Shown here in pieces: positions 21,951 to 64,000 of a DNA stretch of 64,000 nt. The notes below the pieces were generated by a model. That model did no database searches. It saw only the letters and a list, made by a program, of their open reading frames with translations, and was not told the DNA's origin. The position numbers and the translations under genes are program-made. The number at the start of each line of letters is the position of its first letter. The first letter of the stretch is position 1. Origin of the DNA: Tubulanus polymorphus (taxonomy: Eukaryota; Nemertea; Palaeonemertea; Tubulaniformes; Tubulanidae); assembly GCF_964204645.1 (NCBI RefSeq), contig NC_134030.1:8182278-8246277 (forward strand), in the 5' to 3' direction.

Positions 21951-22243
21951 CAATGGGATACCGGCACTCACCACCAGATGGCGCAACAAAATAACGGGTT
22001 ATTCGTAGTAGTGAAAATCAGTTGAACTTGATTTTCAGGTTTCCAAATCCGAAACTATCGAACGAGTAATCGGATAGATATTCAAGATTCCCTTTCTCAC
22101 TCAGTGCATGGTATAGATTTCACGGAAAATTGATTAACTAATCTGAAGGAAATGTAAAGAAGAAATTGGAGCGCGGAAACCCAGTGAAACTAGCGATCCT
22201 TAGGAATTATCGTTTCCGTCAGTAACCTTGTTGGTATCCCACT
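21951..22243. mobile_element. MITE of about 293 bp with GGGATACCGGCA termini carrying a CTCF-like motif
   Basis: Begins CAATGGGATACCGGCACTCA and ends TTGTTGGTATCCCACTG, inverted repeats of each other. CCACCAGATGGCGC at 21971-21984 fits the CTCF consensus core CCASYAGRKGGC. Other copies are 52981-53224 (same orientation) and 47253-47563 (reverse). No ORF of note. Confidence 0.75.
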
Positions 22244-55944: not shown

Positions 55945-56218
55945 TCAAACATTAGACTGAAGCTGAACAGCTTGTAGCCTAACTGAACAATATAATATCA
56001 AAACATTTCAGTTAACAACCTTTCGATTTTCGATGAATAATCTTTAATGTAAGTGGTCCTCACTTTAAAAACACAATCGGTTGCAGATCTTTCGTAGAAT
56101 ATTCACAGCAGTCGCCGAGAGACATTATCTTTTGAGTAAAACAAACTAGGGGTCCAGGGACACCATGCCCACTTGGGAAGTGGTTTCAAATGCTCAACAA
56201 TCTAACAATTTCAATATT

Positions 56219-56830
56219 CAACACCCTCTGGTGACCATATACAAAAACCAATGACCTTGAAACTCAATACAATCATAAAACATGTCAGCAGCTACGATTT
56301 TGTAATTGATTGTGATAACAAACAATGCCTCGTTGACAATTTAATATGGAAATACTAAGTTATTCTACTATTCAACGCCCCCTGGTGACCATATTCAAAA
56401 CCCAATAACCTTGTAACTCACCATATTCATAGAACATGTCATGAACTACAACTTTGCAATTGATGATGGTAAGAAAATATGCCTAGGTACCAATATAATA
56501 AGGAAATACCAGGTTATTCTACTATTCAACGCCCCCTGGTGACCATATACATTAACTAATGTCCTTAAAACTCACCATAATCATGGAAGATGTCATGAGC
56601 TACAACTTTGCAATTGATTACGGAAACAAAATATGTATTGGTACAAATATAATATAGAAATACTAAGATATTGTATTATTCAACGCCCCCTGGTGGCCAT
56701 ATACAAAAAACAATGAACTTGAAACTCACCCCAATCATAGAACACGTTATACGCTACAACTTTCTAATTCATTGTTGTACCAAAATATGCTTAGGTATCA
56801 ATATAATGTCGAAATCTTTTTCCCACCTAC
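56219..56830. repeat. Tandem array, four units of exactly 154 bp, each with a CTCF-like motif
   Basis: The shared CAAC[AG]CCC[TC]CTGGTG[AG]CCATAT block begins at 56219, 56373, 56527 and 56681, three steps of 154. On the minus strand the fourth unit reads TGGCCACCAGGGGGCGTTG, which agrees with the CTCF consensus TGGCCACCAGGGGGCGCTA except at two bases near the 3' end. Units 2 and 3 differ by one more base (TGGTCACC), and unit 1 is more diverged. Confidence 0.9.
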
Positions 56831-57372
56831 AAATAAGTACTAATGACACCAAGATGGCCGCCAATTGCATCATAATTGGCGGATCAAAAATACCTGTCTC
56901 AGGTATAAAACATCCCTTTACAAAGAATACCCATCACAAATTGCAATGAGAAATGGCAAACCAGTAGGAAGCTACAGGACCTAGAATTCTGGCCAAATTT
57001 GACATTTTTGGGCACTTAAAAGGTCATAGGACGGCCATCTTAAGTCAGATGGACCCAATTTTTCTTATGCTGATGGGCCCTTGGTAGATTCAAATATAAT
57101 CGAAAGATCAAGGTAAATGATCAAAGCCTCTTCAAAATTTCCCTCGTAAACTTCGAAAATGTGTAAAAAGTGCTTTTTTTGGCGAACAACAATGGCTGCC
57201 AGTCGGCCATCTTGAATCTGACAGGGCCAGTTTTTGGGCTGAAGATGTGTCTAGGGTAGATACATGTATAAACCAAATATCAAGACATTACCTTGAAGCG
57301 TCTTCAAAACTTCCCAAAATAACTGGATTCCGTCTACGGACGGACGGACGACGGACGAAAAATGAACGCAAT

Positions 57373-57403
57373 AGCCCGCTGGGACTTAAGTCCCAAGTGG
57401 GCT
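57373..57403. repeat. Terminal hairpin of the 56-57 kb element
   Basis: AGCCCGCTGGGACTT folds on AAGTCCCAAGTGGGCT with a mismatch in the middle of the stem. Confidence 0.75.
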
Positions 57404-57462
57404 AAAAATGGCACAAATTTATGATTGAAGACCGAATAATTCATCGAAATACTGTATGTATG

Positions 57463-58496: not shown

Positions 58497-63434
<4,938 letters not shown>

Positions 63435-64000
63435 CTAAAAAAGATATATACATATTCTTCGGTCATAAGATTTTCAATTTTACAGAGAAAATGTAGATGC
63501 ACCAAACATTTGATGATATGAATTATTCAGGTGCGCATGCAATCAACCAAGACTTGTTCGCATTAATTGAATTGATATCAAAAGAGCAACAATCAAAAAT
63601 TATTATAACATATGGCGATATTAGCCACGCAGAACAGCAATAATTAATTTCTATTTTACGCCATGGTATGAAAACAGGTGAGTTGTTACTATTGTTATTT
63701 GGAATGGCAAAATAAAAATAGCTTCACATGGAAATATGCAGCTTAAATTTTCCATGTTGGTATAAAGGCATGTGTATCGATATAGGTTGGATCTGGTTAC
63801 ATTTGCGAATTAAAATAGGAATTATTTGAAAATGAACTGATTTTATACTTGAGGAGTTCGTTTTTATTCACAAATGTGGAACTGGGTCCCGATTCATATA
63901 TAAACTTATGTACGATCACGTCGAAATCAACCTTGGATTTAATGATTACAATAAAAAATCTATATACACGAAAATCAAAAGATGATTGAAGATCGCAATT
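63435..64000 (-). other. SLC6 intron continuing beyond the window
   Basis: No TM6-type exon (family motif around W-x-A-x-x-Q) is seen. The MITE at 63789-63893 lies here. Confidence 0.6.
63789..63893. mobile_element. Foldback MITE with GGACCCAGTTCCAC-type ends
   Basis: GGATCTGGTTACATTTGCGA at the left pairs imperfectly with CACAAATGTGGAACTGGGTC at the right. The ends match those of the 2801-2916 element, and the loop holds GAAAATGAACTGATTTTA. Confidence 0.55.

Follow-up and report, generated by a model that had tools for sequence, protein, structure and literature searches.

The feature at 56144-57408 of the window (the whole 64,000-nt stretch of DNA that was analyzed, C6:8182278-8246277 of a 268-Mb genome that the presence of CTCF and SLC6 genes marks as an animal's) is, judged by its anatomy, a HINE-type element: a non-autonomous Helentron whose central repeats resemble a satellite. 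The reading that we favor, and consider fairly probable, is that this element scatters CTCF-type sites that the host's CTCF, the protein chiefly responsible for genome folding in animals, should be able to read, and that most of the inserted sites are left to decay. Under this reading, the tandem array in the window would form the satellite-like central portion of a HINE present in about two thousand copies, with a CTCF-type site in each unit. The anatomy of the element, the motif, the host CTCF gene, the excess of the motif outside the element, and the decay of inserted motifs at the rate of their flanks are established.

The whole element (1265 bp, minus strand) was delimited by comparing the flanks of other copies: its ends are AACTAGGG on the left (56144) and GGGCTAAAAA on the right (57408), and the sequence was variable beyond them (36 left ends and 35 right ends compared). 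Read on the minus strand, with the termini TTTTTAGCCC...CCCTAGTT, the element consists of a T string, the 5′ subterminal inverted repeat (subTIR) GCCCACTTGGGA (57391-57402; 12 bp, an exact match to the 3′ copy), the inverted repeat TCCCAGCGGGC, which is an imperfect complement of the 5′ subTIR (57374-57384), a short GTCC-type microsatellite (57338-57357), approximately 500 bp, the array, a short flank, the inverted 3′ subTIR TCCCAAGTGGGC (56167-56178), and the terminal CCCCTAGTT; these subTIRs, the inverted repeat, and the microsatellite, all on the minus strand, were read directly. HINEs have a palindrome or stem-loop close to the 3′ end; here, by direct reading, a perfect 6-bp stem with a 3-nt loop at 56169-56183 overlaps the 3′ subTIR. 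HINEs also have T strings at their ends and insert into TT; the bases adjoining the ends of the occupied sites considered here were A/T-biased (left: A24, T12, C4, G5; right: T18, A14, C8, G5). A target-site duplication, scored as a flank match of at least 3 nt, was found in 0 of 45 end pairs, which were taken from loci L001-L072 only with strict end patterns, two right ends being paired twice with nested left ends. None of the window's 14 open reading frames (ORFs) of at least 120 aa falls within 56144-57408. The element shows three of the traits by which HINEs are recognized, namely subTIRs at both ends (about 11-15 bp in HINEs), no target-site duplication in the pairs compared, and central tandem repeats without coding capacity. 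The 58 Helitron_like_N matches in the genome indicate that Helitron-type genes are present.

The array spans 56215-56815, with a period of 154 bp and 3.9 copies (TRF). When it was scanned with the vertebrate CTCF matrix JASPAR MA0139.1, one minus-strand CTCF-like site was found per unit, all four exactly 154 bp apart, which agrees with what the earlier note had read directly from the sequence. In element orientation, the first unit is unit 4 (56674-56820; nhmmer unit profile and TRF), followed by unit 3 (56520-56671), unit 2 (56366-56517), and, last, unit 1 (56213-56363), the latter three delimited by the nhmmer unit profile and all on the minus strand. The unit 4 site, TGGCCACCAGGGGGCGTTG (56681-56699, minus strand), is the strongest, scoring 25.4 bits (P = 1.3e-9 per position) and agreeing with the consensus at each of its first 16 bases, as had been claimed. 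The sites of units 3 and 2 (56527-56545 and 56373-56391, minus strand) are both TGGTCACCAGGGGGCGTTG (20.3 bits, P = 1.0e-7) and are one base off, having T instead of C at matrix position 4, which costs 5.1 bits; the unit 1 site, TGGTCACCAGAGGGTGTTG (56219-56237, minus strand), is weak (14.8 bits, P = 3.0e-6), again as first described. Two details of the sites speak against the favored reading: matrix position 17 is a T in the element, a base disfavored there by the matrix, and in three of the four units position 4 is a T as well. Across 60 order-2 Markov copies of the window, the mean maximum score was 14.0 bits and the top score was 20.6 bits. A separate, strong CTCF-like site, TCACCACCAGATGGCGCAA, lies on the plus strand at 21968-21986 (22.4 bits).

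The repeat is dispersed across the genome, and its ends, its copies, and the orientation of its units agree with the earlier suggestion of a mobile element that carries same-orientation arrays. Left ends with at most three mismatches numbered 2,047 (reversed control, 0), exact copies of TGGCCACCAGGGGGCG numbered 959 (reversed control, 0), and element-type motif sites (TGGYCACCAGGGGGCGTTGAATA, at most three mismatches in 23 nt) numbered 7,383 (reversed control, 1). A chance origin of the bare motif match is ruled out by the matrix scores together with the genome count of TGGCCACCAGGGGGCG. A total of 142 loci were used in the analysis. Among the 70 left-anchored loci, arrays of four units were the most frequent (42 loci), followed by those of three (16), two (4), one (4), and five (2), with no unit in the remaining 2; in all 68 loci having units, these had a single orientation. 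Taken in contig order, the leading 100 entries among the exact left ends extend along C1, a 32-Mb contig, up to 20.2 Mb, and none of them lies in its initial 6.3 Mb.

The host possesses a CTCF ortholog with 11 zinc fingers at about C3:3430379-3432200, in keeping with the assumption of the earlier note that CTCF would be present. In comparison with human CTCF, fingers 1-4 showed 66% identity and fingers 5-9 showed 53%. The helix contact positions (-1, 2, 3, and 6) of fingers 3, 4, and 5 were identical to those of human CTCF in 12 of 12 cases, those of finger 6 in 1 of 4, and those of finger 7 in 2 of 4, such that five of the eight contact positions of fingers 6 and 7 are unlike the human ones, which speaks against the favored reading. 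The core fingers of the host CTCF should be able to read a vertebrate-type site.

The vertebrate-type form of the motif also occurs elsewhere in the genome. The canonical pattern CCASYAGRKGGCRS, which by its last letter shuts out the exact sequence of the element and still counts element copies mutated there, was found 1,240 times vs. 16 times for the reversed pattern, i.e., it was approximately 78-times over-represented; a wider pattern was found 1,003 times vs. 19 reversed. The first 100 listed sites matching this second pattern, which lie exclusively on C1 and C2, formed 73 flank groups: 65 sites had flanks unlike those of any other of the 100, 8 were copies of the element with a single-base change, and 10 belonged to another repeat. 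At position 18, which is free in the wider pattern, T and C were favored (37 + 21 = 58 of the 73 flank groups), as in vertebrates. Because canonical patterns are over-represented, have mostly distinct flanks, and show T or C at position 18, a vertebrate-type CTCF motif appears to be in use outside the element, partly inside other repeats. On these sequence grounds, CTCF is a plausible reader of the element's sites and is likely to bind them.

Several other dense groups of CTCF-like sites were observed. Near the end of the 32-Mb contig, a 61-bp minisatellite of 20.7 copies (L147, C1:31733100-31735000) lies in a stretch where 23 matrix hits exceed 12 bits; every one of them is on the minus strand, most are 59-61 bp apart, and they form a denser array than that of the window. 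At a second locus (L146, C1:31231600-31232500), five CTCF-like sites that share one orientation and score 22-26 bits fall within 400 bp; the periods reported by TRF for this locus were limited to 3 and 4. A further dispersed repeat contains CCACCAGATGGCGAGTGTGATTT (L144 and L145, C1:166600-167150 and 574800-575300), with flanks common to the 10 of the 100 listed sites mentioned; in L144, CCACCAGATGGCGAGTGTGATTT forms an inverted pair that resembles a foldback element or MITE with CTCF-like arms.

The motif had also been described as the best-kept part of the units, a claim that stands weakly among the four unit types and fails in older copies. Among the four unit-type consensuses, the longest identical run was 19 columns and covered 12 of the 16 motif columns (permutation P = 0.065); the probability of a fully invariant 16-column window anywhere was 0.19, and that of the 15 invariant motif columns observed among 16 was 0.037. 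In young copies, the motif window ranked 7 of 128 by shared variants, 12 of 128 by all variants, and 111 of 128 by private variants. In old copies, the corresponding ranks were 88, 91, and 85 of 128, and windows starting from columns 48-52 were better kept than the motif. As a general description, a best-kept motif is ruled out by the old-copy ranks, and its support among the unit types is weak. Around unit columns 40-48 (array units, 56213-56820), TGACCTTGA, the complement of TCAAGGTCA, occurs in the consensus of types 1, 2, and 4 and is absent from that of type 3. We take TCAAGGTCA to be a nuclear-receptor (ERR/FTZ-F1) half-site. The windows adjoining TGACCTTGA are those best kept in old copies.

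These ranks bear on the possibility that the resemblance to CTCF is a coincidence, the conserved block being instead an element-internal signal for the array junction, for tandem expansion, or for Helentron copying. The array starts right beside the motif, and a different block, in windows starting at columns 48-52, outlasts it in old copies. Furthermore, according to PMC5139131, the bivalve BIV160/Cg170 monomers retain two conserved segments, and most satellite junctions fall within or close to these, although this lacked statistical support. Against coincidence stand the 25.4-bit match, at the per-position probability given above, and the abundance of this motif elsewhere in the genome; we regard this explanation as doubtful. 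Site spreading by the element remains the reading that we prefer.

The fate of inserted sites was assessed from 497 non-redundant aligned units, which were left from 516 hits after removing duplicates from overlapping loci; only units with at least 100 aligned columns were counted. The young set comprised 354 units (330 counted) from array-blind searches with exact left ends and best right ends, and the old set comprised 105 units (97 counted) gathered by similarity to one divergent copy (L036). Sampling was biased in that left ends were exact matches on C1 and right ends were the best-scoring ones. The mutation counts excluded loci retrieved by array similarity (L001-L008) or by the motif (L009-L012), and the window's own copy was counted among the young units, through L013. 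Each unit was given the type of the consensus, among the four, that it resembled most, the motif columns being part of the comparison. A mutation was considered private when seen in at most two copies, and a variant was considered shared when present in at least three.

Private mutations were equally frequent in the motif and in its flanks. In young units, 66 of 3287 non-CpG G/C positions in the motif were privately mutated (2.01%) compared with 222 of 11722 in the flanks (1.89%; P = 0.67), and in old units the counts were 45 of 939 and 169 of 3646 (P = 0.86). Because these counts are equal, inserted motifs mutate at the rate of their flanks, an outcome that the earlier note had named as refuting its reading; the lower divergence of the motif in inserted copies, which the note had proposed to test, was not observed. 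In an old subfamily, represented by 4 of 10 older loci inspected (L075, L078, L079, and L082), the unit 1 motif was lost and the remainder of the unit was kept.

Shared variants followed another pattern, with P values that overstate the evidence given that copies and unit types are related: counted by copies at non-CpG G/C positions, they were depleted in the motif in young units (19 of 3287 vs. 483 of 11722, P = 2e-31) and in old units (27 of 939 vs. 215 of 3646, P = 1e-4), and distinct shared variants were depleted in young units (12 of 76 column-types in the 19 motif columns vs. 163 of 492 elsewhere, P = 0.002) and equally frequent in old ones (14 of 76 vs. 84 of 492, P = 0.75). Seven of the 12 distinct shared motif variants of young units were on CpG. 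Shared variants are depleted in the motif, clearly so in young units and with mixed results in old ones, and private ones are not; this pattern suggests that the motif was retained by the source lineage, not conserved by the host.

Taken together, these results are consistent with the following course of events. Because each unit carries a site and the host CTCF should read it, copying of the element would scatter directional clusters of mostly two to four CTCF-type sites. The source lineage would retain the motif at least during the young expansion, and decay would start upon insertion. The persistence of the motif in the source lineage might mean that it helps the element, for instance by opening chromatin or by recruiting CTCF and cohesin in the germ line; alternatively, it may reflect merely shared descent and homogenization of the array.

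A bolder version of this account is that a Helentron-type element rebuilt the CTCF landscape of the genome by inserting CTCF-type sites by the thousand in directional arrays, that the arrays are occupied, and that the source lineage retained the motif because CTCF binding aids the spread of the element. Element-type sites outnumber canonical ones (7,383 vs. 1,240), in a comparison between matches with up to three mismatches in 23 nt and exact matches elsewhere, i.e., at different thresholds. We consider this version, as a whole, unlikely.

Selection by the host is the premise of another explanation, in which many inserted arrays were exapted and act as CTCF boundaries. The number of sites of at least 18 bits (scored without gapped motifs, 17 of 231) was four in 19 of the 70 left-anchored copies, three in 17, two in 19, one in 8, and none in 7; hence, 36 copies keep two or three such sites in addition to the 19 that keep all four. 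The other same-orientation clusters of CTCF-like sites in the genome also speak for exaptation. Moreover, private variants in young copies were slightly milder than expected, with a mean matrix cost of 2.76 bits vs. 3.34 bits in a neutral draw (0.020 of draws), which leans toward some constraint. However, private variants in old copies were no milder than neutral (3.40 vs. 3.54 bits, 0.364 of draws), and the equal private mutation rates of motif and flanks, in young and old copies alike, argue against host selection. General exaptation is thus quite improbable; a minority of exapted copies would be compatible with the private-mutation counts.

Highly improbable, finally, is that the block binds another zinc-finger protein, such as a lineage-specific silencer of the element, instead of CTCF: the CTCF query gave 206 zinc-finger matches in the genome, many of them clustered on C8 and C10, but it is the CTCF consensus in particular that the block matches, and the host has a CTCF whose core contacts are those of the human protein. 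Extensive groups of C2H2 zinc-finger frames were picked up by that query at C8:11.30-11.62 Mb and at C10:3.17-3.36 and 10.90-10.93 Mb.

The earlier note had placed the element just downstream of an SLC6 gene and had suggested that its arrays could seed domain boundaries. The position was confirmed. Four ORFs of the window were scanned with Pfam; two scored above the PF00209 cut-off (63293-63526 and 58989-59288, both minus strand), one scored below it, and one had no match. The match of the ORF at 58989-59288 ends at profile position 522 of 524, and the element lies downstream of the last exon of the gene, on the same strand and approximately 1.6-1.9 kb away. Among the matches listed in the genome search with PF00209, none fell in the window, the nearest being 9 kb past its right end on the minus strand. 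As for boundaries, most inserted sites are probably neither kept by the host nor acting as maintained boundaries. Single copies could possibly seed boundaries; as a general function of the arrays, boundary seeding finds no support.

If the arrays bind CTCF, they would provide a natural test, far from mammals, of what thousands of directional sites, added in small arrays of similar kind, do to a genome, i.e., whether domains change or the sites are tolerated; decay at the flank rate predicts tolerance for most copies. In addition, the strong over-representation of a vertebrate-type motif outside the element suggests that the CTCF code may be readable straight from the genome sequence.

To our knowledge, most documented cases of mobile elements that spread CTCF sites come from mammals. 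Rodent B2 SINEs, for example, spread CTCF sites. A search by title and abstract, with few subscription papers covered, returned related work on CTCF sites in mammals and Drosophila, on CTCF in spiralians, and on bivalve HINEs; no CTCF-carrying Helentron appeared among the titles and abstract openings listed, and no paper covered contained both "Helentron" and "CTCF".

The anatomy of the element is that described for HINEs in Drosophila, mite, and oyster in PMC4067079 and PMC7492417. The closest likeness is to Cg_HINE of Crassostrea gigas and to the bivalve pearl family, which share subTIRs of 11-12 bp, a complementary inverted repeat, a GTCC-type microsatellite (located in the left flanks of the oyster Cg_HINE), central repeats mostly of 140-180 bp in fixed orientation, a short flank at the array end, and the lack of a target-site duplication (PMC7492417). 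The likeness described is one of anatomy, and the term CTCF is absent from that paper. In contrast to DINE-1/HINE as portrayed in PMC4067079, the 3′ stem-loop overlaps the subTIR in the element described here. The bivalve BIV160/Cg170 monomers are relatives of repeats in the pearl element CvA, according to PMC5139131; by eye, the conserved block seems to resemble the BIV160 primer region given there. The element is like the mammalian transposable elements that spread CTCF sites (PMC9902604 and PMC7520972) in that a mobile element scatters CTCF motifs genome-wide, and it is unlike them in being of the rolling-circle type and in delivering up to four directional putative sites per insertion.
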